From contig NZ_CP045687.1 in assembly GCF_009601705.1 (NCBI RefSeq), positions 2,268,001-2,332,000 on the forward strand: a stretch of 64,000 nucleotides of DNA, given 5' to 3'. Shown here in pieces: positions 17,892 through 61,262 of the stretch. The DNA comes from Sulfolobus sp. E5-1-F. GTDB taxonomy: Archaea; Thermoproteota; Thermoprotei_A; Sulfolobales; Sulfolobaceae. The first letter of the stretch is position 1. Each line of letters begins with the position of its first letter. Position numbers and translations under genes: made by a program. The notes under the pieces were generated by a model, which did no database searches, was not told the origin of the DNA, and saw nothing but the letters and a program-made list of their open reading frames with translations.

Positions 17892-17955
17892 TATATATAA
17901 TCTTACACACGTTAGGATAAAAACTTATTATATGAGGAGTTGATAATTCAATTTA

Positions 17956-36551: not shown

Positions 36552-37310
36552 ATGCGTAAATTCTGCGATTTAAGCGGAAGGATAGCCATTATAACTGGAG
36601 GTGCTAGTGGAATAGGGAGAGCTATAGCCTTCAAGATGGCGAGTCTGGGAGCTACTATAATTTTAGGTGATGTAAAATTGGAGGAACTTAAAAACGTCGC
36701 AAGCGAAATTACTCAGCAGACTGGTTCTAAAGTAGTTCCCCTTTATGTAAACGTTGGGGATTTCAATTCAGCTAAGGAATTCTATCAGAAAGCCATAGAG
36801 ATCCTAGGAGTAGATTATGTAGATATCTTAGTAAACAACGCTGGTATAAATAGGGACGCTTTATTTGTTAAGATGACTTTTGAGCAGTGGGATGAGGTAA
36901 TGAAGGTTGATCTATATAGTATGTTCAATATGACTAAACAAGTTGTTGATGGAATGATAAAGAGAAACTACGGAAGAATAATAAACATGTCGTCAATGAG
37001 TTGGTTGGGAAATATTGGACAGGCAAATTATTCAGCAGCTAAAGCTGGCGTTCTAGGCTTTACGAAAACTCTAGCAAGGGAGTTGGCTAAATATAACATA
37101 ACCGTAAACGCCATAACTCCAGGTTTCATTGATACTCCAATGACGAGGGCAGTTCCAGAGAAGGTTAGGCAGAAGATAATAGAAAGGATACCAATGGGTA
37201 GAGTTGGTAGTCCAGAAGAGGTTGCTAATCTAATAGCTTTCCTATCCTCTGAAGAAGCATCCTACATAACAGGAGAGGTAATAGGTGTTACCGGGGGTTT
37301 AGTGTTATGA
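36552..37310 (+). CDS. Short-chain dehydrogenase/reductase (FabG-like)
   Basis: This 252-residue SDR has the cofactor loop TGGASGIG (15-22), the fold motif NNAG (95-98) and the catalytic Ser, Tyr160 and Lys164 (YSAAK). It resembles 3-oxoacyl-ACP/CoA reductases and 3-hydroxyacyl-CoA dehydrogenases. It is first in a tight three-gene operon: its stop overlaps the next start (ATGA, 37307-37310). With a thiolase-fold protein and a DUF35 protein it likely oxidises or reduces a 3-hydroxyacyl-CoA intermediate. Cofactor choice between NAD and NADP is not clear from the sequence alone. Confidence 0.85.
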   Translation: MRKFCDLSGRIAIITGGASGIGRAIAFKMASLGATIILGDVKLEELKNVASEITQQTGSKVVPLYVNVGDFNSAKEFYQKAIEILGVDYVDILVNNAGINRDALFVKMTFEQWDEVMKVDLYSMFNMTKQVVDGMIKRNYGRIINMSSMSWLGNIGQANYSAAKAGVLGFTKTLARELAKYNITVNAITPGFIDTPMTRAVPEKVRQKIIERIPMGRVGSPEEVANLIAFLSSEEASYITGEVIGVTGGLVL

Positions 37311-38464
37311 TTGCTGGTTTTGCCAGTAGTCTTTATAAAAAGTATGAAGGATCAACCTTTGAATTATTAGCTGATACAGTATTTTCAGCATTAGAAATTG
37401 CAGGTTTGGATAAGAATTACGTAGATGGGATTTATCTCACATATCTGCCAGGTACCTTTGATGGTTATGTTAATTCCCATTTTTTCACAAACCAAGTAGC
37501 TCAATATCTTGGAATAAGACCTAAATTTGCCCAGATCTTTGACTATGGAGGAGCCTCTGCCTTAAGTATGATATATAGGGCATATAAGACGATTAAGAGT
37601 GGAGAAGGTGAAACAATATTATGCATCGTAGGTGGAAAGGGTTCAGAGTTAAGAAGTAAAGGAGTTACTGTGGATGCAATAGACAAAGCATACCCTGACG
37701 TATCTCTAACACCATTTGATAGACTTTTCAGAGGACTCAATGATCTAAACCCAGTATCAGATTACGCATTAGTAGCTACCAGACATAAGTATCTCTTTAA
37801 GAGTACGGATGAACAAAGGGCCTTAATAGCTGTTAGGCAAAGGTTTAACGCGATGCAAAATAGTAAAGCTATGTTTAGAGATCCGTTAACTATAGAACAA
37901 GTGTTGAAGTCTCCCCTAATATCTTATCCTTTACATCTTCTAGAGATAGTTTACCCTATAGATGGTTTTCACGTTTTTGTGGTAAGTAAAAGAAATAGTA
38001 AGTCAGCCCTAAGAAACATAGATATTTTAGGATACGGAGAAGCTCACTGGCCTTTTATGCCTACAGAGTTAGATGAGATAGTATATACTCCAGCTATTGA
38101 GAGTTCTAAGGGATTATTGAACGGAAAGATAGATGCTTTTGAACTTTACGATTCTTTTACCATAACTGTTATGCTACAAGTTGAGGATATTGGTTTAGCA
38201 GAGAAAGGTAAGGGAGGCTTGTTCTTTGAAAATCACGATACTACTTTCAAGGGTGATGTTCCTATCAATACTGGGGGAGGTAGTTTGAATACTGGTCAAC
38301 CGGCTTACATGAGTGGTGGAGTTATTTTAGAAGAAGCATTGCTTCAATTAAACGATATGGCTGATGGTCATCAAGTTAAGGGAGCTGACGTTATATTCCT
38401 AAATGGAATTGGAGGGTGGAATAGGTCTCATTCGGTATCTATAGTATTAGGTGAGAAGGAATGA
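37307..38464 (+). CDS. Thiolase-fold protein lacking the usual Cys and His (possible Ltp2-like aldolase)
   Basis: The 385-residue protein has the SCP2-thiolase fold. Where thiolases carry the nucleophilic Cys, it reads FDYGGASALSMIYRA, with Gly in place of Cys. The usual C-terminal GHP motif is replaced by GGSLNTGQPAYMSGG (Gln for His). It is translationally coupled to a DUF35 protein. Thiolase-fold/DUF35 pairs without the Cys are known as retro-aldolases (the Ltp2 type) that cleave side-chain acyl-CoAs. I therefore infer an aldol-type C-C cleavage or condensation rather than thiolysis. A simple acetyl-CoA acetyltransferase label would probably be wrong. Confidence 0.65.
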   Translation: MIAGFASSLYKKYEGSTFELLADTVFSALEIAGLDKNYVDGIYLTYLPGTFDGYVNSHFFTNQVAQYLGIRPKFAQIFDYGGASALSMIYRAYKTIKSGEGETILCIVGGKGSELRSKGVTVDAIDKAYPDVSLTPFDRLFRGLNDLNPVSDYALVATRHKYLFKSTDEQRALIAVRQRFNAMQNSKAMFRDPLTIEQVLKSPLISYPLHLLEIVYPIDGFHVFVVSKRNSKSALRNIDILGYGEAHWPFMPTELDEIVYTPAIESSKGLLNGKIDAFELYDSFTITVMLQVEDIGLAEKGKGGLFFENHDTTFKGDVPINTGGGSLNTGQPAYMSGGVILEEALLQLNDMADGHQVKGADVIFLNGIGGWNRSHSVSIVLGEKE

Positions 38465-38811
38465 GGCTAGAAGAAATATATTCCGCTTATGATAAGATAG
38501 TACAGAGCGGATATTTACCATATATTAGATGTAAGAAATGTACACATACTTTCTTCTACGTTAGGCATTGCTGTCCTAAATGTGGTTCAAGAGATTTAGA
38601 GGTTCTAAGAAGTGAGGGAATAGGTAAAGTTTTCTCTTGGACTAAGATATTTAGGAAGAATGATACTTCTATATACGGTATCGTGGAATTAGAGGAAGGA
38701 TTTAAGGTATATTGTAATTTTACAAGTGACGTGGAGATAGGTGATAATGTAAGAGTTAAAATTGACTCCTTAGGAGATGGTAAGTATAAACTATTAGCAT
38801 ATAAGCTTTAG
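38461..38811 (+). CDS. DUF35 OB-fold/zinc-ribbon acyl-CoA-associated protein
   Basis: This 116-residue protein has an N-terminal rubredoxin-like zinc ribbon (CKKCTHTFFYVRHCCPKCGS) followed by an OB fold (GKVFSWTKIFRK, YGIVELEEGFKVYCNF). DUF35 proteins bind the neighbouring thiolase-fold enzyme and shape its acyl-CoA site. Its start overlaps the thiolase-fold gene by four bases (ATGA), as expected for subunits made together. It ends directly before a convergent small gene. The partner relation is well supported; the substrate is unknown. Confidence 0.82.
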   Translation: MRLEEIYSAYDKIVQSGYLPYIRCKKCTHTFFYVRHCCPKCGSRDLEVLRSEGIGKVFSWTKIFRKNDTSIYGIVELEEGFKVYCNFTSDVEIGDNVRVKIDSLGDGKYKLLAYKL

Positions 38812-39081
38812 CTAAATATATTCAAGTTTTATTATCATTTTATCTTTAAAATTAATTATGTATAGATCTCCTTTTTCTGTTACCACGTCGCATTCTGATC
38901 TTTCCTTAATACACTTAATCCACATACCTTCAAAGTTAGTTCCCTCCTTCACTGTTGTTTTAGAAATTGATTGGAAAGTATTGCTTTCAGAAAAATTTGC
39001 TGCTTTCCTCACACTAACTTTAAATCCCCTAATTGAAGGATTTTGCAATATGCTTTTTATATCCTCAAGTTTGAAACTCAT
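38812..39081 (-). CDS. Small conserved-looking protein of unknown function
   Basis: The 89-residue product starts MSFKLEDIKSILQNPSIRGF and contains SECDVVTEKGDLYIINFKDKMIIKLEY. It looks like a small alpha/beta cytoplasmic protein with two cysteines. CTTATAAG about 20 bases upstream serves as TATA box, so the ATG at 39081 is leaderless. The opposite strand also has a frame here, but its peptide is Leu/Ser/Pro-rich without protein character. It abuts the DUF35 gene tail to tail with no gap. No family is recognised. Confidence 0.5.
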   Translation of the reverse strand: MSFKLEDIKSILQNPSIRGFKVSVRKAANFSESNTFQSISKTTVKEGTNFEGMWIKCIKERSECDVVTEKGDLYIINFKDKMIIKLEYI

Positions 39082-39184
39082 TTCAAATCTAAATTTCTTA
39101 TAAGAGAATATAAAGCTTATCTTGTTAACATTTTTACTTTAAAATAGTTAATAGTATTCTAAATAATAATTTCTATATCTACAA

Positions 39185-39709
39185 TTAACGTGTTAAATAG
39201 GTCGCGAAGCTTATCCCCCATATTATTTCTGGATAGACTATCATTCTCTCCAAACCGCCTGGTCCTAAAGGTCCATAATCTTTGAGAATATATAGGATCA
39301 GTGAAGCTAATGTTACTAAACCCAATATAGTCCAAAAATAATTCCTCTTAATGGAAGTAACTATGGCCCCTATCCCTCCGAAAAGAAAAGTTATTAATGC
39401 CGCAATCAAATGTGGTAGTCCAGTATTCTCCGGGAATATACCTACTAATGTTGCCCCTATCCCTACTAAAAAGATTATTGGGGAATAATTTGCCCTTAGC
39501 AATATTGATGCTATGATAACTAATAGTCCCATTACGATTATTGATGTGTTGAATATTACTGCAGTTCTTCCAACTCCTAAGTCACTAATATAATTATATT
39601 TGACCGAGTAATTTTGATATAAGATTTCTGATATTATAAAAAATAGCAAAAATTGCGATACACCTACTAATATGAGATAACCAGATGCTTTAGTTCTATT
39701 AAGAATCAT
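39185..39709 (-). CDS. DUF998-family membrane protein
   Basis: This 174-residue protein has six hydrophobic helices with the DUF998-type loop NYISDLGVGRTAVIFN after helix 1 and GIFPENTGLPHLIAALITF in the middle. Helices 1-2 are joined by YNYISDLG, the conserved family block. No biochemical role is known for the family. It is transcribed leftward after the methyltransferase gene, with a 37-bp gap, and might be cotranscribed with it. Confidence 0.75.
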   Translation of the reverse strand: MILNRTKASGYLILVGVSQFLLFFIISEILYQNYSVKYNYISDLGVGRTAVIFNTSIIVMGLLVIIASILLRANYSPIIFLVGIGATLVGIFPENTGLPHLIAALITFLFGGIGAIVTSIKRNYFWTILGLVTLASLILYILKDYGPLGPGGLERMIVYPEIIWGISFATYLTR

Positions 39710-39746
39710 CAGTATTTTTTGTACATTATTAAACTTAAATATTTAT

Positions 39747-40370
39747 CTATTTCCAACTCTTAATTATAATCCCAAGACCTCCAGCCTCGTTTGTTAACTT
39801 ATATAATTTTACGCCTTTCTGTTTAGCGAAGTAATAAGGAGCTTTAGTGAAATCTAGGTTATCTATAAGCAACACTCCACCATTTCTCAAGTAGTCCCAC
39901 ACGATATTTAGTTCAAATGTTACGTTCTCAAACGTATGCTCGCTATCGTGAAGGAAAATATCAACCTTACCTAACCTCTTTAATAGATCAGGCAAGATAT
40001 CTCTGCTCCTTCCGATATATAACTTCCATTTACTCCTTAACTGTTCTTGTACTAGAAATCCTACTTGCTTTCCATTCTCCAAAGTCTCCCTTACATCAAT
40101 GGAGTATAGCGTACCCTTCTCTAAAGCAGAGAGGATTATTGTACTTGATACACCTGGAGCAACACCAGTTTCAATTACTATGTCTGGATTGTAGTATTTT
40201 ATTATAGAATATAGAATATACCTCTTGGTTTCGCTTAGTGCGTATCTAAAATCGTTCCCTAGAGCCCTCTTAATCTCATTGTTTATTTCTTCAGCTTCAT
40301 CCCAGTACTTGTTGAGATCCACATTAAATATTTCCTTTAGAGCTTTGGATATCGATTCCGAGTTCCTCAT
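39747..40370 (-). CDS. SAM-dependent methyltransferase (class I, Methyltransf_24-like)
   Basis: The 207-residue protein has the SAM-binding motif I VIETGVAPGVSSTIIL (about 60-75), motif II LYSIDVRE, an IFLHDSEHTFENVTFEL acidic block and GGVLLIDNLDF. The pattern fits small class I methyltransferases related to cephalosporin-hydroxylase/FkbM-like groups. The acceptor is unknown. The HDSEHT block suggests a metal-assisted O-methyltransfer, but this is only inference. It is a cytoplasmic protein. Its ATG (40370) lies 50 bases downstream of the end of tatC. Confidence 0.7.
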   Translation of the reverse strand: MRNSESISKALKEIFNVDLNKYWDEAEEINNEIKRALGNDFRYALSETKRYILYSIIKYYNPDIVIETGVAPGVSSTIILSALEKGTLYSIDVRETLENGKQVGFLVQEQLRSKWKLYIGRSRDILPDLLKRLGKVDIFLHDSEHTFENVTFELNIVWDYLRNGGVLLIDNLDFTKAPYYFAKQKGVKLYKLTNEAGGLGIIIKSWK

Positions 40371-40420
40371 ACTGATATTTATCTTTAATGATGATTATAA
40401 AGATAACTACTATTTGTAAC

Positions 40421-41290
40421 TTAAGATTTCCTTTTCTTCTCTATAAAGAACGAAATTCCCATTCCTAAAAAGTATAGGCTCGATAGCGATAATCCTATTA
40501 TTGTTTCCATTACTCCTCCAGTTGTTCCCGGTGAAATTATCCACGCAATAATAAATGAGACTAAAACTCCCCATCTCCAATAATTCCTCCATGTCTTAGC
40601 CTTAATTATTCTTAGGTAAGTTAAACCAATCATTATCAATGGCATCTCAAATGCTAATCCCAATGATCCCATTAATAAGAAAGTTGTAGATATGAACGAA
40701 CTTAAACTTATGGTAGGTTCTACCGCTGGACCTAAGGACTTTGTATAAAATGATATCATGTCAAACATTAAGGGGATTAATATGAAAAATGCAAACATAG
40801 ACCCAGAGAAGAAAAGCAGAAATGCAGGAATTATGGTTAGCTTAAATATTCTCTTTTCATGCTCATACAACCCCGGAGCTAAAAACGCCCAAGTTTCTCT
40901 AATTATTATGGGAAGCGTAGTCAATAACGCAAGATAGAGTGAAACATAAAGCGACGCATATAGCGGATCAAATAAGTTTATTATTATTATCTTAGTATTA
41001 GCCGGTAATTCATGATAAATAAAGAATTTGGTTACTTCTACTGCTATACTATCGTAAAATGACGGATAAGGAATTGGAATTTTTGAGATATTTATCCCAA
41101 GAAATGGTATTTGTAATGGATCTATATTAATCCACTCAATACCCATCATGAAGTAAAAGAAGAACGAGATAGCTAATGCTATTATAATTCTCCTTAGTCT
41201 TATTGCTAACTCTCTTAAATGATCTAATAATGACTTCTCTTCAAAAAAACTCTTATCTTCTTTTCCCTCCTGCTTTACTTTCTCTTCCAC
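40421..41290 (-). CDS. tatC: Twin-arginine translocase subunit TatC
   Basis: The 289-residue protein has six helices and the TatC signatures LLDHLRELAIRLRRIIIA at the N-terminus and FLAPGLYEHEKRIFKL between helices 2 and 3. TatC recognises the twin-arginine signal of folded proteins to be exported. Compared with bacterial TatC (about 250 residues) it has a longer first extracytoplasmic loop (NIDPLQIPFLGINISKIPIP). It starts at GTG 41290, ten bases after tatA, and so is in one operon with it. Confidence 0.93.
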   Translation of the reverse strand: MEEKVKQEGKEDKSFFEEKSLLDHLRELAIRLRRIIIALAISFFFYFMMGIEWINIDPLQIPFLGINISKIPIPYPSFYDSIAVEVTKFFIYHELPANTKIIIINLFDPLYASLYVSLYLALLTTLPIIIRETWAFLAPGLYEHEKRIFKLTIIPAFLLFFSGSMFAFFILIPLMFDMISFYTKSLGPAVEPTISLSSFISTTFLLMGSLGLAFEMPLIMIGLTYLRIIKAKTWRNYWRWGVLVSFIIAWIISPGTTGGVMETIIGLSLSSLYFLGMGISFFIEKKRKS

Positions 41291-41300
41291 GTTGAATACC

Positions 41301-41576
41301 TCAAGTCTTCTTACTTTGCTTCAAGGCTTCTAATTGTTTTTGTAATTCTGCTATTTTCTTCTCAAGCTCTTCTACACTTTCATTACTCCCCCTCTTTTCG
41401 ACTACGTTATTAGACATCATTTGTTGCATTTCCATCTCTGCTTCTAGTTGGCCCTTCTTGAACTCTCCCATTGACCTTCCTAAAGCCCTGAAAAGCTCTG
41501 GTATTTTAGATGATCCAAAGAAGAGTATAGCAATAACTACTAAGATTATAATTATATCTGTTGGGCTATCTATCAT
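41301..41576 (-). CDS. tatA: Twin-arginine translocase subunit TatA
   Basis: The 91-residue protein has a short N-terminal helix (IIIILVVIAILFFGSSKIPE), the FG hinge and an amphipathic helix (LFRALGRSMGEFKKGQ), then a charged coiled-coil tail (ESVEELEKKIAELQKQLEALK). This is the TatA/E layout forming the translocation pore. It is first gene of the tatA-tatC operon and starts at ATG 41576. Confidence 0.92.
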   Translation of the reverse strand: MIDSPTDIIIILVVIAILFFGSSKIPELFRALGRSMGEFKKGQLEAEMEMQQMMSNNVVEKRGSNESVEELEKKIAELQKQLEALKQSKKT

Positions 41577-41891
41577 AATTTACCCTCCCACCCTCCCTTG
41601 TATTTATATTTTATCATTTATGATTAATAAATTTTGCTACGAACCACTCTCAAACTGCTATCTGACTTCCTTCTCTTTCTTATGTTTAAGTTATTACCCT
41701 CATCCCCGCCCTAATTTTGTGATTTAAAAGTATGTTTCATTCATCTTGCCGTGAAGGGCAGGGTTTTCTACCAGTAGCGTCGTAAAATAAGGTGAAATGG
41801 TTCTACTGGGATGAAAGATACGTGAAAATCCTCTAATTAAACCTAACTTGTAAACATGATTACTTATTAGCCTCCGTTCGGATTTCTCTAT
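41577..41891. other. Divergent region between tatA and ilvD, 315 bp
   Basis: Apart from the two promoters it holds a stem-loop-rich segment at about 41700-41820 that looks like the end of an IS200/IS605-type element (separate entry). No gene is seen. Confidence 0.4.
41700..41820. mobile_element. Possible IS200/IS605-type end remnant
   Basis: Hairpins are prominent: GCC-GTGAA-GGGC (41748-41759) and a 7-bp inverted repeat CCAGTAG (41771-41777) with CTACTGG (41813-41819). The sequence CCCCGCCCT...GGGCAGGGTTTT resembles the hairpin-bearing ends of IS605-group elements in Sulfolobus. No transposase or TnpB gene is present. The assignment is by pattern only. Confidence 0.35.
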
Positions 41892-43568
41892 ATGCCAACA
41901 AAATTGAATAGTCCCTCAAGATATCATGGAGTATATAATGCTCCACATAGGGCATTTTTAAGATCTGTTGGTTTAACAGATGAAGAGATAGGTAAACCAT
42001 TAGTTGCCATAGCTACAGCATGGAGTGAAGCGGGGCCTTGTAACTTCCACACACTAACGTTAGCGAGAGTAGCTAAAGAGGGTGCAAAAGAAGCTGGTTT
42101 ATCTCCATTAGCATTTCCAACAATGGTAATTAACGATAACATTGGAATGGGATCTGAGGGAATGAGGTATAGTTTAGTTAGCAGGGACTTAATAGCAGAC
42201 ATGATAGAGGCACAATTTAATGCTCATGCATTCGATGGATTAGTGGGTATTGGAGGTTGTGATAAGACAGAGCCCGGTATATTAATGGCAATGGCTAGGT
42301 TAAATGTTCCTTCAATTTACATTTATGGCGGATCAGCTGAGCCAGGATACTTTATGGGTAAAAGGTTAACAATAGAAGACGTGCATGAGGCAATAGGTGC
42401 TTATTTAGCAAAGAGAATAACGGAAGATGAGTTATACGAAATAGAGAAAAGGGCTCATCCTACATTAGGAACTTGTTCTGGGTTATTTACAGCTAACACT
42501 ATGGCCTCAATGTCAGAGGCATTAGGAATGGCATTACCAGGGAGCGCATCACCAACTGCTACCTCATCAAGAAGGGTAATGTATGTAAGAGAAACGGGAA
42601 AAGCTTTAGGTAGTTTAATTGAAAACGGAATAAAGGCTAGGGATATATTGACTTTTGAGGCCTTTGAGAATGCGATAACAACGCTAATGGCAATGGGTGG
42701 TTCAACAAATGCAGTACTACACCTATTGGCAATAGCTTATGAGGCAGGAGTGAAATTAACCTTAGATGATTTTAATAGAATTTCCAGAAGAACACCCTAT
42801 ATTGCAAGTATGAAACCTGGTGGAGATTATGTGATGGCTGATTTAGATGAAGTTGGAGGCGTTCCAGTAGTTTTAAAGAAGCTATTAGATGCTGGACTTC
42901 TTCATGGTGATGTTTTAACAGTTACTGGAAAGACTATGAAGAAAAACCTTGAAGAATACAAGTATCCCAACGTACCCCACAGTCATATAGTTAGAGATGT
43001 CAATAATCCGATTAAGCCCAGAGGAGGTATAGTTATATTAAAGGGATCATTGGCTCCAGAAGGTGCTGTTATAAAAGTAGCTGCAACCAGCCTTGTTAAA
43101 TTTGAAGGAAAGGCTAAGGTTTACAATTCCGAGGATGACGCTTTTAAGGGTGTTCAAAGTGGGGAAGTTAGGGAAGGTGAAGTAGTAATTATAAGATATG
43201 AAGGTCCTAAGGGTGCTCCTGGGATGCCAGAAATGTTAAGAGTTACAGCAGCAATCATGGGAGCAAGTTTGAATAACGTTGCCTTAGTTACTGATGGTAG
43301 ATTTTCAGGGGCAACTAGGGGGCCAATGGTAGGTCATGTAGCACCAGAGGCAATGGTAGGCGGGCCGATTGCAATAGTTGAAGATGGGGATACTGTAATA
43401 ATTGATGTTGAAAACGAAAGGTTGGACTTAAAGTTACCTGAGGAGGAGATAAAGAATAGACTAAAGAAATGGTCTCCCCCACAGCCTAGGTATAAATCTG
43501 GACTATTGGCGAAATATGCTTCTCTAGTCTCGCAAGCTTCTATGGGTGCTGTAACTAAACCTGTATAA
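41892..43568 (+). CDS. ilvD: Dihydroxy-acid dehydratase
   Basis: This 558-residue enzyme dehydrates 2,3-dihydroxy acids in valine/isoleucine synthesis. The Sulfolobus protein is also known to act on gluconate-type sugar acids. It has the Fe-S ligand motifs GGCDKTEPG and [27 protein letters not shown]-type context, and the C-terminal [11 protein letters not shown] and [21 protein letters not shown]. Full length with no gaps. It starts at ATG 41892 and is followed 30 bases later by the carboxypeptidase gene, so the two may share a transcript. Confidence 0.94.
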
Positions 43569-43598
43569 TTTTTTATTTGTTTTCCTATATCCTAATTT

Positions 43599-45002
43599 AT
43601 GTATGAAGATATTTGGGCAATTGAGCACGCAATAAGTTTACTGGATTGGGATATTCAAACTTACATGCCCCAATCTGGAATTGAGGCAAGAGGAGAGGCT
43701 TTAGCAAGGTTAAGTAACTTGAGAAGGAAACTATTATTAAGTATTAGAAGTAATGTGGAGAAGTTAGAGCCTAAAAATGACGTTGAAAGAGGCTTAAAAC
43801 GAGTATTAGATAGGGAATATAAGTATTATGATGCTGTACCAGAAGAATTAGAAATGAAACTTCGCAGAATAACATCAGAAGCTACAGTAGTTTGGAGAAA
43901 TGCTAAAGCTAAGGGAGATTTTAACACTTTTAGACCTTATTTAGAGCAAATAGTTGAAATCGAGAGAGAGATAGCGAATAGATTAGGCTATAAAGATCAT
44001 CCATATAGCGCTCTCTTGGATATGTATGAGGAAGGATTTACTGTTTCCGATGCAGATAGCGTATTTAATCAATTACTACCCAATTTGTCAAAGATTCTTG
44101 ACAAAGTCGATGATAAGTTTACTAGAAAGTATCATTTTGAAGATGATAGATACGATGTTTTTCAAATGAGTAAAATTATAGAGAAGATAGCTTATGACGT
44201 ACTAAAGATGCCTAGGGATAGATTTAGGATTGACGTTTCTCCTCATCCCTTCACTACCTCAATGAGTAGAAACGATGTTAGAATAACAGTTAGGTATGAA
44301 GGGTATGATTTTAAGAGAGTCTTATATTCTCTAATACATGAAAGTGGTCATGCAATATATGAGTTACAAATAGACCCAAGCTTAGAATACTCTCCTCTAT
44401 CCAGAGCTCCTTCCATGGGTCTTCATGAATCGCAGTCCAGATTTTGGGAGAACATAGTGGGAAGAAGCTATGAGTTCGTTAAGACTATTTATCCCTTGCT
44501 TAGCGTTAAAGACAGTGTTGATGATGTATATTACTACGTTAATGGGGTAAAAAGGCAACCAATAAGGGTTGATGCAGACGAAGTCACATATAACTTTCAT
44601 ATAGCAATCAGATATGAAATTGAAAAGAAGGCAATAGAGGGTAGTTTAGAGGTTAACGAGTTCCCCTCACTATTTAATGACTTGATGGATAAATATCTGA
44701 ATATAAGACCTAAAAATGATGGAGAGGGAGTTTTACAAGACGTTCATTGGAGTCAAGGCTCTTTCGGATATTTTCCAACTTACACATTAGGGAATGTTAT
44801 AGCTGGTATGGTTTACTATCACATGAAGAGGGAGGTTGGTTTTGATATTAGTAATGTGGAGAAGATGAAGGAATGGCTAAGGGAGAAAATTCATAAATAT
44901 GGAGCTATATATTCAGTAAAGGAGTTGCAAATGAGGTCATTTGGTGAGACGTATAACCCATCTAGACTATTAGATTATTTGAAAGAAAAATATAATGCAT
45001 GA
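43599..45002 (+). CDS. M32 (Taq-type) metallocarboxypeptidase
   Basis: The 467-residue protein has the zinc motif HESGH (247-251) and downstream [11 protein letters not shown] with the third ligand region. [19 protein letters not shown] and [23 protein letters not shown] are family signatures. It removes C-terminal amino acids from peptides in the cytoplasm. Typical M32 enzymes are about 500 residues; here the first helix is shorter, starting almost at [13 protein letters not shown]. No earlier in-frame start is apparent within the 30-bp gap after ilvD. Catalytic residues look complete. Confidence 0.9.
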
Positions 45003-45099
45003 TGTGAAATCTCTCCCTGAACGATGAAGAACTGGGTCCTTACTGAAAAAATCTTAACTTAGATATATTATTTTTTCCCATTTATGTTTAATTTGGTTT

Positions 45100-45660
45100 T
45101 TAGTCATCTTGCTCATTATCATCTTCATGATGATCCTTTCCATTATCTTCATGATTTTTCTTTCCATGTTCTGTAGCTTGTGTCTGTACTTCTTGTTGCT
45201 CTCCTCCATATTTTACTATTAAGAATGGAACATTACTAACTGACTTTGCCTCGGGGTTTTGTGATACTAGATAAGATATTTTAATGTTTACCGTATAAGT
45301 GCCCTTGTTGAGGTATAATGTGTAGTGATCTGTTCCGTGTAGAGATAATGTAAAGGTGTTATTGGCAATGCGAATTGTAACGTTAAATTGAGAGAACACG
45401 TCTTCTAGTATATCCTCTTTTAATTTTATGGTATAAGTGCCATTAGCGGAAACAGTAAGAGTAGCGTTTTCTGTCAATGTACCCTTTTGCCCAGCACTTA
45501 AATTTGCTAAATTGAAGGAGGCTAGAGTAGTTTGTATAGTTGGTGAGGTAACGTTATAGCTTATAGTTCCTAAACTTCCGCTTATTTCTTGTCCAATTAC
45601 TACTCCACCTATTAATATTGTGCCTAATAATAGACCGAGCAAGAGTAGTTTGTTCACCAT
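45100..45660 (-). CDS. Secreted protein with beta-rich domain and His/Asp-rich tail
   Basis: The 186-residue product has an N-terminal hydrophobic signal (KLLLLGLLLGTILIGGVVIG), a beta-rich domain with repeated N-x-S/T sites, and a strongly charged tail from about residue 160 (HGKKNHEDNGKDHHEDD). The tail could bind metal ions outside the cell. There is no second membrane helix, so it is either released or held by the uncleaved signal. GGTGA before ATG 45660 is the ribosome site. It lies just downstream of a membrane-bound regulator gene on the same strand, which may control it. Confidence 0.5.
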   Translation of the reverse strand: MVNKLLLLGLLLGTILIGGVVIGQEISGSLGTISYNVTSPTIQTTLASFNLANLSAGQKGTLTENATLTVSANGTYTIKLKEDILEDVFSQFNVTIRIANNTFTLSLHGTDHYTLYLNKGTYTVNIKISYLVSQNPEAKSVSNVPFLIVKYGGEQQEVQTQATEHGKKNHEDNGKDHHEDDNEQDD

Positions 45661-45723
45661 TTCACCTAACGTTATATCGTAAGTTCATCCTTTTAAGGAA
45701 AACGTGCCGAAACAATGAAACAG

Positions 45724-46515
45724 TTATTTTTTATCACTTTTTACGACATATCTAATCTTACCTTCCTCTCTTATCTCCTCTATATATCCTAGCTTAACTA
45801 ACTTCTTAACTCTCCTATATGCGGTAGATTTAGGTAAACCGGTCTGTCTCACTATTTCAGCTAACGTATTGGTACCCATTTTTATCGCCTCTAACACGAT
45901 AGTATCCCTTTCATCCAACACCTCTGGGACGAAATCTACACTTTCCTCTTCCTCCTTAATTTCTACGCTTTTTCTCCTTAACAGGAATAGAATTAGTGTT
46001 ATCAAGGCTGCATCGCTACCTATCAAGCCCCCTATTATTATAGGAAGTTCTATTTCATTTTGGGTTGTAGATATATGGGAAGAAAAGGTATAGAGCAAAA
46101 TCACGTTATTCGTGTTAATAAAAGTAATATTATAATTATTGCCTATAATATTAAAACTATAGGGTTGCGGAGAAATATAACTGATTGATGAGTTAAGAGG
46201 CAGATAAACATTGATTGTAGCATTATAGTGCTCATTAATTTGGATAACCCCCTTAGGTAATATGGCATTGTAGTAAATGAAGACAGTAGTATTAGTAGTA
46301 GTAGGAGTAAGATACAATATATTTCCAGACAAGTTGTATTTAGCTCCAATGACCTTAAGATTCGTTATATTATGCCCTATTAGGACAAATTGATTGACGT
46401 TTCCACTAAGTTCAGCCTCCACAGTACCGTTATAGTAGATGTTCAAGACTGAGGAGTGTGAAATGATTACTGGAACTGTTATCAATGGTAAGAGTAATAA
46501 TAGCAAAATCTTCAT
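45724..46515 (-). CDS. Membrane-spanning one-component regulator: extracellular sensor, TM helix, cytoplasmic winged HTH
   Basis: This 263-residue protein has a signal/first helix (residues about 2-18), a glycosylation-rich beta domain outside the cell (about 20-160), one membrane helix (IIIGGLIGSDAALITLILFLL) and a cytoplasmic winged helix at the C-terminus (RDTIVLEAIKMGTNTLAEIV, QTGLPKSTAYRRVKKLVKLG). This places DNA-binding and sensing on opposite sides of the membrane. I start at ATG 46515; the in-frame TTG one codon earlier is less likely. The neighbour at 45660 is a plausible target. Family naming beyond MarR/TrmB-like HTH is not possible. Confidence 0.65.
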   Translation of the reverse strand: MKILLLLLLPLITVPVIISHSSVLNIYYNGTVEAELSGNVNQFVLIGHNITNLKVIGAKYNLSGNILYLTPTTTNTTVFIYYNAILPKGVIQINEHYNATINVYLPLNSSISYISPQPYSFNIIGNNYNITFINTNNVILLYTFSSHISTTQNEIELPIIIGGLIGSDAALITLILFLLRRKSVEIKEEEESVDFVPEVLDERDTIVLEAIKMGTNTLAEIVRQTGLPKSTAYRRVKKLVKLGYIEEIREEGKIRYVVKSDKK

Positions 46516-46696
46516 CAAACTTAACTAAATATTAACAAGTTTATTAGCTTAGCGATTGCTATATATGGTGTTAATTTACTCCTTGTCGTTTAGAGTTTAA
46601 AGTCTTTACCTTATTTTTTACTCCGGAAGATATATTCCAAAAAATCTTTCCTCATGGTTCAATTCACATAAAGACCTTAAAGATTTTTAATATTAG

Positions 46697-52745: not shown

Positions 52746-52806
52746 ATTTAAACATTTTTTCTGTCATATTTATGTATGAAGTTTAGACTCGTGACATTTA
52801 TTATTG

Positions 52807-52979
52807 TAGTATTTTGCGTGAATTTACCTCAAATCCCTTAAACATTAACATAGATTCTATTCAAAAAGATTTAAATTATTATAAAATGGTTCAAGCGTGT
52901 ATAGTATAAATATACCTTAGAACTTTCATTGTAAAAAATTAAACGTTATATATTATACGTCATTTTCAAGAAGCTACTA
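52807..52979 (+). mobile_element. MITE-like element, copy C (173 bp)
   Basis: Begins TAGTATTTTGCGTGAA and ends AAGAAGCTACTA, with inverted TAGTA/TACTA ends. Flanked by a perfect 6-bp duplication TTATTG (52801-52806 and 52980-52985); the site could also be read as 7 bp (ATTATTG). It matches copies A and B throughout (CCTCAAATCCCTTAAAC, CATAGATTCTATTCAA, TTAAACGTTATATA). Non-coding. Confidence 0.75.
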
Positions 52980-54066: not shown

Positions 54067-55036
54067 AAGAACAACTGTGTTCATCTTCCTAGTTCTCATA
54101 GCCTTAGGCTTGTCACTAGTAATCGCACAAATTCTTTTCATGTCAATAAGTGTTATAGGAATTGTTGAGGGCTCCTCTCATGGGATAAAAGTATCGGGCT
54201 ATGTATTCAACTTCCAAGGAAATGGTGTAAGTTCAGAAGTAAAGGTTTCATATTACGATTTCCAAGAAAGCGTTAGGACTAATAATGGATCGTTCTGCAT
54301 ATATCTGCCAGTTGCGTATATTCAGAATAGTACTAAGGTTGATGTGATAGTGAGCTCATTTCCAAAAGACTTAAATCTAACACTATCTATACCAAATTCT
54401 TCAACTACTTTCGTTTTTTCACGTCTCTTTTTAAAATATTATTCTAGCCAAAATCTTTCAATTATAAGCGTTAATGGTAAAACTTTTATCGCAGTAGATC
54501 CTAAACGAGAAAATTTAAACTATACAATTGTCGAGATTAATTCAGATAATGTCAATCTTCCTATGAACATCAATTTCACCTATAATAATTTTTCAAATAC
54601 ATTAAAGATACCACTTATTATTCTTTTATTGTTCATCTTTTCCTTTATTGATTTAATGAGCTACTATTTGTTATCATCTTTTCCTAGAGGCGAATTAAGG
54701 CAAATCATGAGGTTAGTAGGAATAAGCAAAGTATATGTCGGAAAGTTAATAGCTGAGATACCTTTGATAATTACGTTATCTAGTTTACCGTTTTATTTGT
54801 TTGAAGTCATTTTAATAGGTAATAACTTTGCCTTGATTTTACCTTATATAATAGCTTCAATCTCTTTCTCCTTAGGCGTTTATGGACTAGCACCATTCGG
54901 AAGCAAGAACATGATATATTATTCTGTAGTACTTGGATTTTATATTGTAAATTTAGTAATTTATGATAGATACTTATATTCTGTATTGGCATCTCTTCTA
55001 CTACTAGTTGGATATCTAAAACTGACAAGATCCTAG
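54032..55036 (+). CDS. ABC transporter permease with extracytoplasmic domain
   Basis: The 334-residue product has one N-terminal helix ([21 protein letters not shown]), an external beta-like domain of about 140 residues with N-x-S/T sites, and then four to five helices. [20 protein letters not shown] lies between the later helices, typical of ABC-2/FtsX-like permeases. It begins at ATG 54032 inside the ATPase gene. The external domain may bind a ligand or cell-wall component. It is followed by a convergent DoxD-like gene with a four-base overlap. Confidence 0.65.
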
Positions 55037-55569
55037 ACAACCATTAAATATACAATGACCGCAATGTATATCATAGTGCCCACTATTATCCATAGTACGT
55101 TGTTATTTATAGCGTTAAATTTTCGTGATATTAAGGAGTCTATTGAGAAATTACCAGAACCATAAGCTATTATGTACGCGTTTATTATCATCATTAGAAG
55201 ATTTAACCCATATTCCTCAGCTCCAGTCCAGCTAGCTGATAAGAAGTAAATTAAGTTAGTGTAAAATGCTACTACACTACATAATCTACTCATTAATCCT
55301 ATAAGAGTTAGAATCCCAAAGCAAATCTCTCCTATCATCACTAATGTTCCCACTAGAACTGGATGTGGCATTGCGACTATATATAGAAACTGTCTTATAA
55401 TAGATCCTTGGGCTAAGTATTGTATCGTAAAACCTACATATTGTTCGGATGATGGATTCAGAAATCCTGGATTGAGAAGTTTCCCTATAATACCGGCGTA
55501 GAGCCATATGGAAGCCATTGATATTCTTAAAATTAATGTAAAATTATCGGAGATCATTGTTTTTGCCAT
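55033..55569 (-). CDS. DoxD/DoxX-like membrane protein (possible thiosulfate:quinone oxidoreductase part)
   Basis: The 178-residue protein has four to five helices and the DoxD-type N-terminus [23 protein letters not shown]. Also seen are [19 protein letters not shown] and [23 protein letters not shown], close to the DoxD subunit of thiosulfate:quinone oxidoreductase. I start at ATG 55569, with GAGAGGGA just upstream; the open frame extends further but through the preceding gene's end. It overlaps that gene by 16 bases. No DoxA subunit is seen. The link with sulfur genes upstream strengthens the idea; the enzyme role is inferred. Confidence 0.65.
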
Positions 55570-56465
55570 AATAATCCCTCTCTTAATTTCTTGCCAACTT
55601 GCATGAGAGAGTATAATGATAAAGAGAGAATTGCTACTCCAGCAAATACGGGGGAGGATAGTATTATTAATTGGGAGATAGTAGAGAGTAGAGGCACTCC
55701 CATATAGAGTGTGTATTTCCACACTAGGTTTTTACTTATTAATGGGAACGAGGAAGATGCGAGATACAATAATGAATTTATTGCAGTAGGGGTTAAACAA
55801 CAAATTCCAGCAATTGTTCCAATTGATGGGACTGAGGCCGTCAAGAATCCCCCTACCATGTTTGTCGTAGCTATCCTAAAAGTCCTTGGTACTTTCCATT
55901 TCATTAAATTGTATGACACGTACATTAGTGATATAGTATAGTAGCTTAGCATGAACGCAAATGATAATATTAACGTGTTTAATAAACCAAAGACGATCAT
56001 TGGTATGTTAAGCACGAAAAAATTGAAGTACGTTTGAATTCCATATGCGTCGTATGTTATTATTGTTAATTTTATAAAATATGGGCTAATGTTGATGTTT
56101 GGGATCAATATAACTCCTCCAACTATTAAGAAAGATAAAGAATAGGCGATTGAATATAAAGTTAATATTTTTCTAAACGTTTTATCTCTGAGAAGACTCT
56201 TTATAATATTTAGTACATTGAAGTCCCCTTTCACTAATATGAATTTATTCTCCTTATATCTATAAAGGAAGTACCCAACTATACTAGAACAAGCGAGATA
56301 TATAATAGTGAATATTAAAAAGGGAAATATGAACGTTTGTTGTCCAGTATCAGATAAGGGAGAATACCACAAACTAATTATCCTAACCCCGTTTATTAAA
56401 ATTGGGAGAAATACAGTAAAATTAAAAAACAAAAAAGTATAGAAATATGGATGTATAACTTTCAT
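55554..56465 (-). CDS. Polytopic membrane protein with Cys pair, unknown family
   Basis: The 303-residue protein (from ATG 56465) has about eight helices. Its most marked block, [20 protein letters not shown], holds a Cys pair in a membrane segment and might bind metal or carry redox equivalents. AGGGGAATAAGG before ATG 56465 contains the ribosome site. It sits between the beta-propeller gene and the DoxD-like gene with a 10-bp gap upstream and 16-bp overlap downstream. So it is an integral part of a three-gene operon. The function is unknown. Confidence 0.55.
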
Positions 56466-56475
56466 CCTTATTCCC

Positions 56476-57693
56476 CTAACAATGAAGTCCACTAACTGGA
56501 GGCAGTAGGACGTTATCAACTAGGTAAGTAGCCATCTGATTTTGAACTGGAATTATAACTGCCGGAGCAGTAGACAAGGGTACATAACTACTCACCGTTA
56601 AACTACTTAAGGATATTAGAGCTATTATACCACCTGATTGTACATTACCGTGAATCACAACGTATGCATATTGTCCTCCTGGCATGAGTTCTATATCTGC
56701 TAAGCCCTTAACACTAAATGTGGGCAAGTCTATAGTTTTTACTATTTGAAAAGTCGATGTGGATATTACAAACACTTGATTTGCATTTGAAGGTGCCTCA
56801 AGATAGTACTCTCCATTTGGTGTGAATACACCCCTTTGAGGTATTGTACCATTTGGCATTTGTAAGATGCCTAACAATTTCAATGATGGTAGAGAGTAAA
56901 ACCCAACTGAGTTATTTCCAACGTACTCTACCGCTACCATTGTCCCTTGAATGTTAGGGCTTACCATATAGGGTTGTGAGCCAGCAGCTGCTGGTAAAAC
57001 CTTAATTACACTACCGTTTAAGGCTATAAGATCAACACTATTGTTAAATCTCATTGGAACTATTAAGTAGCTCCCATCTGGACTCCATCTAACGTCGCAA
57101 GGGTAATACGTTCTACCGTTAACTGAGGATACGAAATGCTGTTCCCATATTATGTTAAGCGATGAAACGTTGATTAGAGCTAAGATACCGCTTGGTCCAT
57201 CTGCAACTGCAACCAATTGTTGATTTGGTGAGTACGCAACTCCTATAAACCCTATACTATTTCCAAAATTGAACTCCTTTACGATCTTTAAACTATTAGG
57301 ATCGATTACGTAAACCGTGCCATTATTTACCGGTATGAAGAAGTATCGAGATTGTGCTGTATTTTCAAAAGGATATTCAACCCACCAATATACTTGTTGG
57401 GGTACGTTCGTAGAGATGTTAATGGAATGTATATATCCTTGGAAAGGTGTGGTGGATGATGGGTTTATTATTTCTGCAATTCCTTTCTGTGTGAATACTA
57501 GGAAGCTGTATTGAGGCAATGTGGTAGAAACTGAACTACTGGTAGTTTGGGTTGAACTGGGTATTGACGATGATGGAGATTGCTTTAACATAATGTATGC
57601 AGCACCTACTCCTATCAATATAATTACTATGAGTCCTACTATTAACCATAATTGATAACTGGACAACGCTTTGATTAACTGCTTTTTATTCAC
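56476..57693 (-). CDS. Membrane-anchored extracellular beta-propeller protein (YVTN/YncE-like)
   Basis: The 405-residue product has an N-terminal membrane anchor ([21 protein letters not shown]), a Ser/Thr linker (about 39-58) and repeated blades with patterns like [29 protein letters not shown] and [12 protein letters not shown], as in seven-blade YVTN propellers. The final residues are HC. It starts at GTG 57693 and is first gene of the propeller-membrane protein-DoxD-like operon. Its promoter lies in the 120-bp inverted repeat that is also present before tusA at 59781, so both are probably controlled alike. Confidence 0.7.
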
Positions 57694-57703
57694 TCGATTT
57701 CCC

Positions 57704-57823
57704 CAAAATATTACGTATTTTTAGGTAATTATAAAAGTTGTGATATTATAAACCCTTATTAAAGTTCTTATAATTAAATTGTAATTATCATATCTACAAT
57801 ATCTAATATTTTTGCATAAAAGT
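57704..57823 (-). repeat. 120-bp inverted repeat, left copy (DsrE tail plus promoter)
   Basis: Identical to the reverse complement of 59650-59769 at 117 of 120 bases; the three mismatches are adjacent (57787-57789). It includes the last 16 codons of the DsrE gene and the whole promoter of the propeller gene (two TTTATAAT-like boxes). See the finding on possible inversion. Confidence 0.92.
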
Positions 57824-58109
57824 CTGGAAAACAACCGATCTTTGCTTCCTCTATCAATTTATCAGCTAAATTTCTCATGTATACGCATTGATCACAAGCT
57901 TGCAAATATATGCCCTTTTCTCTACTAAGTTTACTTAATCTTTCGGCTAAAGGATTCTCTTTCATTAAAATATACACATTATCATGTATAAAGAACATTC
58001 CAATAACCTCTGCGTTGTGTCTGTTTTCCTCTAACTGTGGTATTATCATCTGCCCTAAAATGTAAGAACCCAAATTGGATTCGACTATGTAAGCAATTCT
58101 CTTAACCAT
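57774..58109 (-). CDS. DsrE-family sulfur-carrier protein
   Basis: The 111-residue product has the DsrE fold pattern: an N-terminal strand (KRIAYIVESNLGSY), then GMFFIHDNVYILMK, and the conserved cysteine pair in LQACDQCVYMRN (C72, C75). Such proteins pass persulfide sulfur to or from TusA. I start at ATG 58109, preceded by GGTGTC; the open frame begins four codons earlier. It overlaps the upstream gene by eight bases. Its last 16 codons lie in the inverted repeat, and the same tail (FYAKILDIVD) is found again as a remnant before tusA at 59781. Confidence 0.72.
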   Translation of the reverse strand: MVKRIAYIVESNLGSYILGQMIIPQLEENRHNAEVIGMFFIHDNVYILMKENPLAERLSKLSREKGIYLQACDQCVYMRNLADKLIEEAKIGCFPDFYAKILDIVDMIITI

Positions 58110-58464
58110 TGTTGACACCATTTATAAATTTATCAACAACATCGTTCACTATTTGATTAATTGTAAATCCCTTAATTTTACTTAATTTTTCCATGAAGGT
58201 ATGTCTATCTATTTTCCCATCATTTTCCATATATCCCTCACAGAGTGCTTCTAAGGTAATTATAAGTAGTGGACATTCAGAACTTTCATAATATATTTTT
58301 CCATCTTTAGCTCTATAAAGTGCGAACCATCTAGAATTATCTATCCTAAAATAGCCCAATTTTTCCGCATTTACCTTCTTCCTATAACTAAATAACCTTT
58401 TCATTAGAAAATCTGAAGCGTATCTCCTATTAATTATACAGCCACATTCATCCTTAAGCTCCAT
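58102..58464 (-). CDS. Small cytoplasmic protein of unknown function in sulfur-relay operon
   Basis: The 120-residue product contains four Cys (MELKDECGCIINRRY, ESSECPLL, EALCEGY) and otherwise an alpha/beta-like sequence with SRWFALYRAKDGKIYYES. I start at ATG 58464, with ATTTATTT about 25 bases upstream as a TATA box; a TTG three codons earlier is possible. It may be leaderless and overlaps the DsrE gene by eight bases. No family is recognised. The CGC near the N-terminus could take part in sulfur or metal handling, which is speculation. Confidence 0.5.
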   Translation of the reverse strand: MELKDECGCIINRRYASDFLMKRLFSYRKKVNAEKLGYFRIDNSRWFALYRAKDGKIYYESSECPLLIITLEALCEGYMENDGKIDRHTFMEKLSKIKGFTINQIVNDVVDKFINGVNNG

Positions 58465-58508
58465 AATTGGCAATATGCACTTAGTCTAAATAAATTTTTT
58501 TAAAATAA

Positions 58509-59141
58509 TTAATCTAACGATAAATACATAACGTTTGTTTCTCCAGACAACTTCTTTAAATATTCTAAGGCTTCATAATCTAATAAGGTTCCGTCTTCAG
58601 TGTCAATCCTAGCACATATTATTTTGTTATTCTTAACCAGTCCAGTAAATAGCCAACCTCTACCTAGAGGTGCAGAGGAGACTAGGCAAATGTCTTTTTC
58701 ACAGTTGAATATATAATTCCTAAAATCATTAACTTTTTCAATTTTATGAAATTTCATAAAATATGTATATAGAAATGACATAAATTTCTTATCCCTAATT
58801 AGTTCTTTAATTCTAGTCTCATTAAATTCCTTTATAGCCTTAACGTATTCATCAGTGTTAATTATATTACTTAAAACTAAAATCCTAAAAGATACGTAGT
58901 CTTCGTATTTCAAGACTTCATATCTACAGTTGAATAACTTAATTATTTCCGGAATAGTATGAGCTACTGCGGCATGATTATCAGTCAAAACTTCTACTAT
59001 TTCTCCTCTATTAGCCTTCATCAATTCTCTCTTTAACGTTATTTCCGGAACTGGGCATTCTTCCCCTCTAAGATCTACTACCTTATCTGGCTTAAGAGTA
59101 GAAATTCTAAAATTATTTTCAACTTTTTGTTTCCTTAACAA
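58509..59141 (-). CDS. TusA-like domain fused to an unknown C-terminal domain
   Basis: Residues about 15-92 form a TusA/SirA domain: [20 protein letters not shown] with the sulfur-carrying C29 in a C-P-x-P motif, then GEIVEVLTDNHAAVAHTIPE. The other 115 residues (FKILVL..., YFMKFHKIEKVNDFRNYIF, CEKDICLVSSAPLGRGWLF) are not of a known family and contain further Cys. TusA is usually 75-85 residues, so this is a fusion. It starts at TTG 59141, overlapping the small gene upstream by seven bases. The fusion may bring an acceptor directly to the sulfur carrier. Confidence 0.7.
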   Translation of the reverse strand: MLRKQKVENNFRISTLKPDKVVDLRGEECPVPEITLKRELMKANRGEIVEVLTDNHAAVAHTIPEIIKLFNCRYEVLKYEDYVSFRILVLSNIINTDEYVKAIKEFNETRIKELIRDKKFMSFLYTYFMKFHKIEKVNDFRNYIFNCEKDICLVSSAPLGRGWLFTGLVKNNKIICARIDTEDGTLLDYEALEYLKKLSGETNVMYLSLD

Positions 59142-59338
59142 ATACCTCGAATACCTTCTAAATTTTTCCTTATGGAGTTTGTTATGCTACTTAGGAGTTT
59201 TTCGAGAATTCCTCTGTAACTTATTTTAACATTTATTCTCTGTTCGCTCTCCTTATGGAATGTTATACTTATTATGAACCTTCCATTCTTTTCTATTATA
59301 TCTAGACCATCTCTTTTCGGTTTGCAAATACATTGCAC
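59135..59338 (-). CDS. Small protein with N-terminal C-x-C, head of the minus-strand sulfur operon
   Basis: The 67-residue product starts MQCICKPKRDGLDIIEKNGR and contains RFIISITFHKESEQRINVKISY, with a basic C-terminal helix (LLSSITNSIRKNLEGI) ending in Cys. It begins at GTG 59338 and overlaps the TusA-fusion gene by seven bases, so it is the first gene of a unit that runs on to the TusA fusion. No family is recognised. The C-x-C near the N-terminus is notable in this setting. Confidence 0.45.
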   Translation of the reverse strand: MQCICKPKRDGLDIIEKNGRFIISITFHKESEQRINVKISYRGILEKLLSSITNSIRKNLEGIRGIC

Positions 59339-59780
59339 TTTTAGTCTGGAAATGTTAAGATAACAAATATAACCAAAATCTAGTTTTTTATATTTGATAG
59401 TTTATATAATTTATATGAGTTTTCTAAGTCTAATAACGGCTTGAAATCATCAGCGTAAATCAGTGTAGTTTCCTCTATCATTGTTTAAAATGATGTTAAT
59501 TCTATTTAAAAACTTATCTTTAGTCATTTAATGAATAACTGAATTTAATCTTAAGAATAAAAAGTCCATTCTTAGCATTAAGCAATCATAAAAATGTGAA
59601 GTAAAAAATCTTTTGGATTAGCTAGCTTCGCTAGATAAGGTATTTTATAACTTTTATGCAAAAATATTAGATATTGTAGATATACGAATTACAATTTAAT
59701 TATAAGAACTTTAATAAGGGTTTATAATATCACAACTTTTATAATTACCTAAAAATACGTAATATTTTGAGGGAGTCAAA
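59339..59780. other. Divergent promoter region between the two sulfur operons, 442 bp
   Basis: The right part is the inverted-repeat copy (59650-59769). A small perfect hairpin CTAGC-TTC-GCTAG lies at 59622-59634 just before it. The left half is AT-rich and carries the promoter for the leftward operon, with no gene. Confidence 0.45.
59650..59769 (+). repeat. 120-bp inverted repeat, right copy (DsrE-tail remnant plus promoter)
   Basis: This copy begins in the middle of a codon series reading FYAKILDIVDIRITI-stop, the end of a DsrE gene whose body is absent here. It continues through the same TATA boxes and leader as the left copy to the tusA start. The matching DsrE tail at 57774 differs by two residues. 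It provides the promoter of the tusA operon. Confidence 0.92.
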
Positions 59781-60029
59781 GTGGAAGATCTTACTTTAAG
59801 ACAGCCAGACGAGGTTCTTGATGTTAGAGGAGAGGAATGTCCTGTTCCAGAAATGAGCGCAAGCAAAAAATTGAAGAAAATGAAAGTTGGACAAATGCTA
59901 GAAGTATTAACAGATCACGAACCCGCAGTACATGTTACTTTACCTTCTTTATGCAAATCCTTAGGATACCCGTTTGTAGTGATAAAAGATAACGGACTTT
60001 ATAGGGTGAGGATCCTAAAGGTGAAATAA
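59781..60029 (+). CDS. tusA: TusA-family sulfur carrier protein
   Basis: This 82-residue TusA protein has the motif [20 protein letters not shown] with C20 in C-P-V-P, the site that holds a persulfide, and [20 protein letters not shown]. It is the normal size. It starts at GTG 59781 with GAGGGA (59769-59774) upstream. It leads an operon with a YeeE/YedE transporter three bases downstream. It shares a promoter copy with the propeller operon at 57693, and its N-terminal half is like the fused TusA domain at 58509-59141, so they may be duplicates. Confidence 0.88.
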
Positions 60030-60032
60030 TCA

Positions 60033-61262
60033 ATGCCAAGTATGGTACTACAGCCAGTACTTCAAGAAAGTTGGGCATTGATTTATGGATTGTTCGCTCT
60101 TTCTGGATTTATTTTAGGTTGGGCAGCCCAAAGAGGTAATTATTGTTTTGTAAACGCCATGACATCAATATTTACAGCTAAAAGCTATGAGAGATTTGGA
60201 GCTCTTCTAATACTATTCGGATTATCTGCTTTGGGATGTGGATTACTGGTTGCATTTGGTTTTATTCCCGCAGTTGACCAGTATTATTATAACTATTTTG
60301 CAGGATGGTACATTCTTGTTGGCTCTATAATATTTGGCTTTGGTGCAGCATTAGCAGGTGGTTGTAATTTATCTATGTTGTATAGGGCTGCTAGTGGCTA
60401 TGTTCAAAATTGGGTGGAACTATTTGGAATGATGATAGGCACTTACGTATTTGCCATAGGTATATGGCCTTTTCAGCTGTACACGATGACAAATGGGATT
60501 TTATCGACTACGAATGGAGGGTACATTGAATACTTACCTTACTTGATATTTCACTCAATTTCAAATATGTCAGTCTATATAACTACGTTAGTACTTAGCC
60601 TACCACTAATATTTATTGGAATATACTTGCAACAGTATACCAAGAGAAAATGGGCAATCTCATCAAGTCTACGTGTTAATTTGCCTACAGCGAGAATGTA
60701 TTATAATCAAAACTTAGGTGTGTCTGGAGAAGAAAAGGTATCGTTAACCAAGGAAATTAAAGATCTGATACTGTTAAGAAAACCATATGGAACTAATTTG
60801 ACAACGATAATACTGGCATTAGATTTGATTTTAGTTTTCATAGTTGGTGCAGGATATACATTCAATTACTTAGTCATAACTTCATCTGACGGCGGTAGGT
60901 TCTTTGAGTACCTGTTAATGTTAGGAAATGTCAAGTTATTTCTGAATACGCCTTGGTTTAACGATTCACTATCAATCGTAGACCCGAGTACGCTAATGGT
61001 AATAATGTTGTGTATTGGAGCTTTCTCGGCATCATATTTAAGTGGCGACTTCAAAATACGAATACCTAGGAATAAGAGAAGATTACTGATAGGGTTTGGA
61101 GGAGGAATGTTAGTTGGTATAGGCGTTAGGATGGCTCTCGGATGCAATGTAGGATTGATGTGGACCAATTTCGCTCAATTAGGTTATGACGGTATCATAT
61201 TCCTCTTTGGAATGTTGTTAGGAGTTTATTTAGCGGTTAAAGTCCAGGAGAGGTGGTTATGA
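60033..61262 (+). CDS. YeeE/YedE-family sulfur compound transporter
   Basis: The 409-residue protein has about nine to ten helices and the YeeE/YedE family blocks GFILGWAAQRGNYCFVNAM, GGCNLSMLYRAASG and, in the second half, GIGVRMALGCNVGLMWTNFA, each holding a membrane Cys. YeeE (TsuA) proteins carry thiosulfate, moving it along conserved cysteines, and cooperate with TusA-like partners (TsuB). Here TusA is encoded three bases upstream. This strongly suggests import of thiosulfate or a related sulfur donor. The position of the Cys residues agrees with that role. The next gene overlaps its stop (ATGA). Confidence 0.85.
   Translation: MPSMVLQPVLQESWALIYGLFALSGFILGWAAQRGNYCFVNAMTSIFTAKSYERFGALLILFGLSALGCGLLVAFGFIPAVDQYYYNYFAGWYILVGSIIFGFGAALAGGCNLSMLYRAASGYVQNWVELFGMMIGTYVFAIGIWPFQLYTMTNGILSTTNGGYIEYLPYLIFHSISNMSVYITTLVLSLPLIFIGIYLQQYTKRKWAISSSLRVNLPTARMYYNQNLGVSGEEKVSLTKEIKDLILLRKPYGTNLTTIILALDLILVFIVGAGYTFNYLVITSSDGGRFFEYLLMLGNVKLFLNTPWFNDSLSIVDPSTLMVIMLCIGAFSASYLSGDFKIRIPRNKRRLLIGFGGGMLVGIGVRMALGCNVGLMWTNFAQLGYDGIIFLFGMLLGVYLAVKVQERWL

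Follow-up and report, generated by a model that had tools for sequence, protein, structure and literature searches.

A 1826-bp segment carrying sulfur-relay genes (57824..59649) in the genome of the thermoacidophilic archaeon Sulfolobus sp. E5-1-F is bracketed by two near-identical inverted arms of about 120 bp, and it is found in both orientations among related species, with the ends of the inversion falling inside the arms and the arms themselves evolving in concert. Positions are those of the window, i.e. the whole 64,000-nucleotide stretch of contig NZ_CP045687.1 that was analyzed. The arm pair is present in four of the seven genomes, one per species, that sample the genus: G000, which is the window genome, G001, G002 and G006. 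The locus combines a self-sealing inversion with the concerted evolution of its candidate promoters, and the known class to which it probably belongs is homology-mediated inversion: repeats flank the segment, both orientations occur and the junctions lie inside the repeats. The explanation we favor, with a probability of roughly 0.8, is that a promoter and a gene tail were duplicated together, that gene conversion has homogenized the two copies and that crossovers between them flip the intervening segment.

The inverted repeat and its gene neighborhood

Repeat finding recovered the arms as 57696-57823 and 59650-59777 (128 nt, 95% identity). Their aligned core, 57704..57823 on the minus strand at the left and 59650..59769 on the plus strand at the right, differs at three adjacent bases, GAT versus ACG on the dsrE-sense strand; inverted copies with three adjacent mismatches had been claimed in the initial annotation, and both the repeat finding and the alignment confirm them. 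Beyond the core, the similarity fades over a few further bases toward each start codon. In 77 kb, no other inverted repeat reaches both 60 bp and 80% identity, and this, together with a self-BLAST E-value of 1e-52, indicates that it did not arise by chance. A search of the genome returned no third copy of the arm, the total being two. The window also contains an intergenic direct repeat of about 170 bp and 81% identity (36109-36275 and 52801-52972), whose length is near that of the SM3A MITE (164 bp) of S. islandicus.

Each arm couples the end of a gene to the candidate promoter of an operon. The left arm supplies the 3' end of dsrE (57774..58121, minus strand), i.e. its last 15 codons and the stop codon, followed by the candidate promoter and 5' leader of the propeller-membrane-DoxD operon, which begins at GTG 57693. 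The right arm carries the same dsrE tail with the gene body absent, and runs into the candidate promoter and leader of the tusA-yeeE operon, which begins at GTG 59781. The initial annotation had described just this arrangement, and the right flank indeed lacks a recognizable dsrE, the 310 bp beside the arm having no convincing homology to the dsrE body. A decayed duplication of the whole gene was considered there and rejected: global alignments of this 310-bp spacer to the dsrE body score like shuffled sequences, and the weak local scores in G000 and G002, which 4 and 3 of 500 shuffles reach, are absent in G001 and G006. The reading of the arms as an RNA element was likewise dropped, as they have no Rfam match and no unusual fold (z = -0.36).

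From right to left on the minus strand, the segment encodes a 67-aa protein (59135..59338), the first gene of its operon, a 210-aa TusA-domain protein (58509..59141; TusA 1.9e-15), a 123-aa protein (58102..58473) and DsrE, whose nearest NCBIfam model is SaoD, below the cut-off. The 67-aa and 123-aa proteins have no family match and are conserved in relatives. To the left of the segment, the minus-strand operon codes for a beta-propeller-like protein with weak propeller matches (56476..57693), a membrane-like protein with no family match (55554..56519) and a DoxD-like protein of the thiosulfate:quinone oxidoreductase subunit family (55033..55722; DoxD 2.9e-62). To its right, the plus-strand operon combines tusA (59781..60029; TusA 6.6e-20) with the gene for a YeeE/TsuA-like sulfur (thiosulfate) transporter (60033..61262). 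DsrE, TusA, Sulf_transp (YeeE) and DoxD are all matched in Pfam; the Sulf_transp match of the transporter is strong (3.6e-55), with partial matches to the TsuA and YedE models that fall below cut-off. A thiosulfate transporter of the YeeE type has been reported to be strongly sulfur-induced in other Sulfolobaceae (PMC11323534).

The operon-proximal half of each arm is an exact block across the four species, 63 bp long at the left (57704..57766, minus strand) and 68 bp at the right (59707..59774, plus strand), these being respectively the third and second longest such blocks in the 77 kb compared. Lying 37-61 bases upstream of each start codon is a core that resembles a BRE and a TATA element, GGTTTATAAT followed by TTTTATA, at 57730..57754 on the minus strand and, before tusA-yeeE, at 59719..59743 on the plus strand. 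This sequence and its conservation suggest that both arms have promoter activity. Thus, of the proposal that the two operons share a promoter, the near-identity of a promoter-like sequence in both arms stands, and the promoter role itself is a prediction. A similar motif is found upstream of the propeller operon and of most tusA genes in related genera, which indicates that part of the likeness between the two putative promoters predates the repeat; that of the right arm derives from the propeller promoter, because a dsrE tail came with it. A regulon-wide motif can be set aside, as the genome contains just one further occurrence of the core pattern, within a coding sequence. Among the exact blocks common to the four species, the longest in the region measures 70 bp and is at 17871-17940, between ORFs 17262-17891 on the minus strand and 17956-18858 on the plus strand, an interval that has the appearance of an unusually conserved divergent promoter region.

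Two orientations among related species

The arm pair was not found in any other genome of the set searched, and each genome that carries it has two copies, always at this locus. In G000 and G002, dsrE adjoins the propeller gene. In the sister genomes G001 and G006 the segment is flipped, such that dsrE is placed just upstream of tusA and reads into tusA-yeeE, and the tail remnant now precedes the propeller gene. The dsrE gene is intact, at 115 aa, in all four, and when the whole region is aligned at the nucleotide level, both ends of the inversion fall within the arms. It had been anticipated in the initial annotation that a flip of 57824-59649 would break no gene and would turn dsrE toward tusA, and G001 and G006 have exactly this structure; related genomes had been named there as the place to look for both orientations, which were found in two genomes each.

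The four species are about 8-13% apart in nucleotide sequence: across the region, identity is 91.9% for the pair G001/G006 and 86.5-87.5% from one of the three lineages to another. In a local protein tree, G000 is grouped with G002 (98) and G001 with G006 (99). In the outgroups, dsrE adjoins the propeller gene in 11 of the 11 loci that have dsrE, and hence this adjacency, the state seen in the window, is ancestral. Given this polarity and the pairs in the tree, one inversion in the ancestor of G001 and G006 suffices to explain the distribution.

In a further 13 genomes from the genus and family, this locus had no inverted repeat of like length and identity, but diverged TusA-domain matches and short matches only; a contig search with dsrE as the query returned loci from Metallosphaera and Aramenus alone. 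Several other orders and orientations of the sulfur genes are seen in L078 (G012), L079 (G010), L081 (G003), L077 (G014), L082 (G015) and L085 (G028); across the family, this locus is therefore often rearranged even where the inverted repeat is absent. The dsrE gene is missing here from two genomes of the genus (L080 of G005 and L081 of G003), and in G005 a dsrE-like stretch with internal stops lies elsewhere (778878-779192; L064). The invertible segment of G002 contains a 1.4-kb insertion with a transposase-like ORF (about 6930-8340 of L072), which disrupts the TusA-domain gene at its 3' end and has a second near-identical copy about 62 kb away. Further, among the four genomes G002 alone has a block of about 10 kb (36504-46573 of the window) in reversed orientation. 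No earlier report of the inversion of the sulfur-relay segment was found in the open-access literature searched.

Concerted evolution of the arms

A comparison of 116 aligned bases from both arms in the four genomes reveals that the copies are closer within than between genomes: the two arms differ at three bases in G000 and at none in each of the others, as against 2-8 differences between lineages, and all four arms of G001 and G006 are identical. Moreover, lineage-private variants are shared by the two arms, as is typical of gene conversion. For instance, one dinucleotide is AG in G000, CC in G002 and TT in G001 and G006, with each state present in both arms, and three further lineage differences of the dsrE tail recur in the non-coding remnant. 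Since the remnant codes for nothing and yet carries the changes of the coding tail, selection on the protein is no explanation for this pattern. Under parsimony, a tree that groups the arms by genome takes 10 steps compared to 17 for one that groups them by position, and independent evolution of the arms would require about seven exact parallel changes. The lineage-private states therefore imply that sequence passed between the arms once the species had separated, and did so also after G000 and G002 had diverged.

Taken together, these observations support concerted evolution of the arms by gene conversion. Among the causes that had initially been offered for their high identity, repeated homogenization is upheld by the step counts, whereas a recent duplication is excluded, because the pair predates the split of the four species and the arms have exchanged sequence since. 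At the three mismatched bases of G000, the left-arm state is that of the other genomes, so the right arm carries the derived state, which has not been homogenized.

Mechanism, alternatives and known systems

We propose that the common ancestor of the four species gained an inverted copy of about 120 bp upstream of tusA-yeeE, comprising the 3' end of dsrE and the promoter of the propeller-DoxD operon, and that both operons would have been under one promoter sequence ever since. Homologous recombination between the arms, probably as the short-patch gene conversion described in Sulfolobus (PMC4471258), would hold them alike within a genome: non-crossover events would leave the arms alike, while resolution of such an event as a crossover would invert the 1.8-kb segment, and one such flip would have reached fixation in the lineage ancestral to G001 and G006. 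As each arm has the dsrE tail and a complete candidate promoter, the flip would harm no gene and alter neither operon's promoter. Hence, its sole expected effect in this sulfur-uptake region would be to decide which operon lies downstream of the sulfur-relay genes (u67-tusA-u123-dsrE) on the same strand, and thereby which one receives any read-through from the dsrE operon. The length of the arms, their homogenization over the whole length and the lack of a recombinase nearby (in G000, none of the tyrosine type is encoded within 400 kb, and neither G000 nor G006 yielded one of the serine type) point to homologous recombination as the likely agent. However, one inversion is enough to explain the data, so flipping may be rare, and the arms of G000 are still three bases apart, so homogenization is not instantaneous.

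We see about even odds that gene conversion homogenizes the arms with the inversion being a rare, neutral by-product of no regulatory consequence. This is compatible with the favored explanation, differing only in denying any effect, and it accords with the single inversion, the invariance of the promoter half in four species and the retention of a promoter by each operon in both states; the conserved adjacency of dsrE and the propeller gene in all outgroups hints that adjacency may matter, albeit without being decisive. Alternatively, the locus could be a reversible switch, in which frequent flips within populations set read-through into either the propeller-DoxD or the tusA-yeeE operon. The occurrence of both orientations in nature, the likeness of the arms in every lineage and the absence of gene damage in either state are all in line with this. 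Nevertheless, we consider it improbable because one inversion accounts for the distribution, no dedicated recombinase is encoded nearby and, with the promoter unchanged for both operons in either state, any effect would be via read-through alone. We hold as equally improbable that the arms constitute a recombinase-free, reversible archaeal switch, where their match, upheld by gene conversion, lets the sulfur-relay operon re-join either downstream operon with no gene broken.

The observed pattern could also have other sources. The length of the arms is close to that of a short read, and an ambiguity of repeat length in assembly might have misoriented the segment or made the arms falsely identical; yet the orientation tracks phylogeny in two genome pairs, the arms of G000 differ at three bases and the arm edges have lineage-specific bases, which renders an artefact very unlikely. 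A site-specific recombinase with a short target site within the arms would be consistent with the inversion ends being there, but the arms are much longer than typical recombinase sites, their homogenization along the entire length points to homology and recombinase genes are missing as noted above; this reading is highly improbable. An origin of the arms as a mobile non-autonomous element is scarcely credible: S. islandicus genomes do have MITEs of similar length (PMC3718332), but here there are two copies per genome only, confined to this locus rather than dispersed, and their sequence is that of a gene tail and a promoter.

The locus gives a natural, species-level instance of gene-preserving ('self-sealing') inversion in archaea, with concerted evolution seen in the putative promoters of separate operons. 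It further offers a short and tractable locus for the rates of ectopic gene conversion and inversion in Sulfolobales.

Several known systems bear a resemblance to this locus. The human Y-chromosome palindrome P6 (PMC3723533) likewise has inverted arms kept near-identical by gene conversion and rare inversions of the spacer; here, the arms are archaeal, of about 120 bp, and each consists of a gene tail and a promoter. Bacterial invertons and invertible promoters, such as the fim switch and those of Bacteroidales, are similar (PMC9993118, PMC8748976, PMC11892184) in that a short segment between inverted repeats beside operons inverts. In contrast to them, the present element has long arms with the candidate promoters inside and no recombinase encoded in it or nearby, and neither operon loses its promoter; since inversion does not connect or disconnect a promoter, whose sequence is the same in either orientation, the flip does not act as an on/off switch for a promoter. 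The short-patch gene conversion of Sulfolobus (PMC4471258) is the likely homogenizing process in this family of organisms, although it is known for transforming or mating DNA and not for chromosomal inverted repeats. Finally, archaeal inversions mediated by IS elements or integrases (PMC5495485, PMC3718332) are also chromosomal inversions between repeated sequences, but they invert large segments by way of IS copies or tRNA attachment sites, whereas here the repeated sequence is a host promoter and the end of a host gene.
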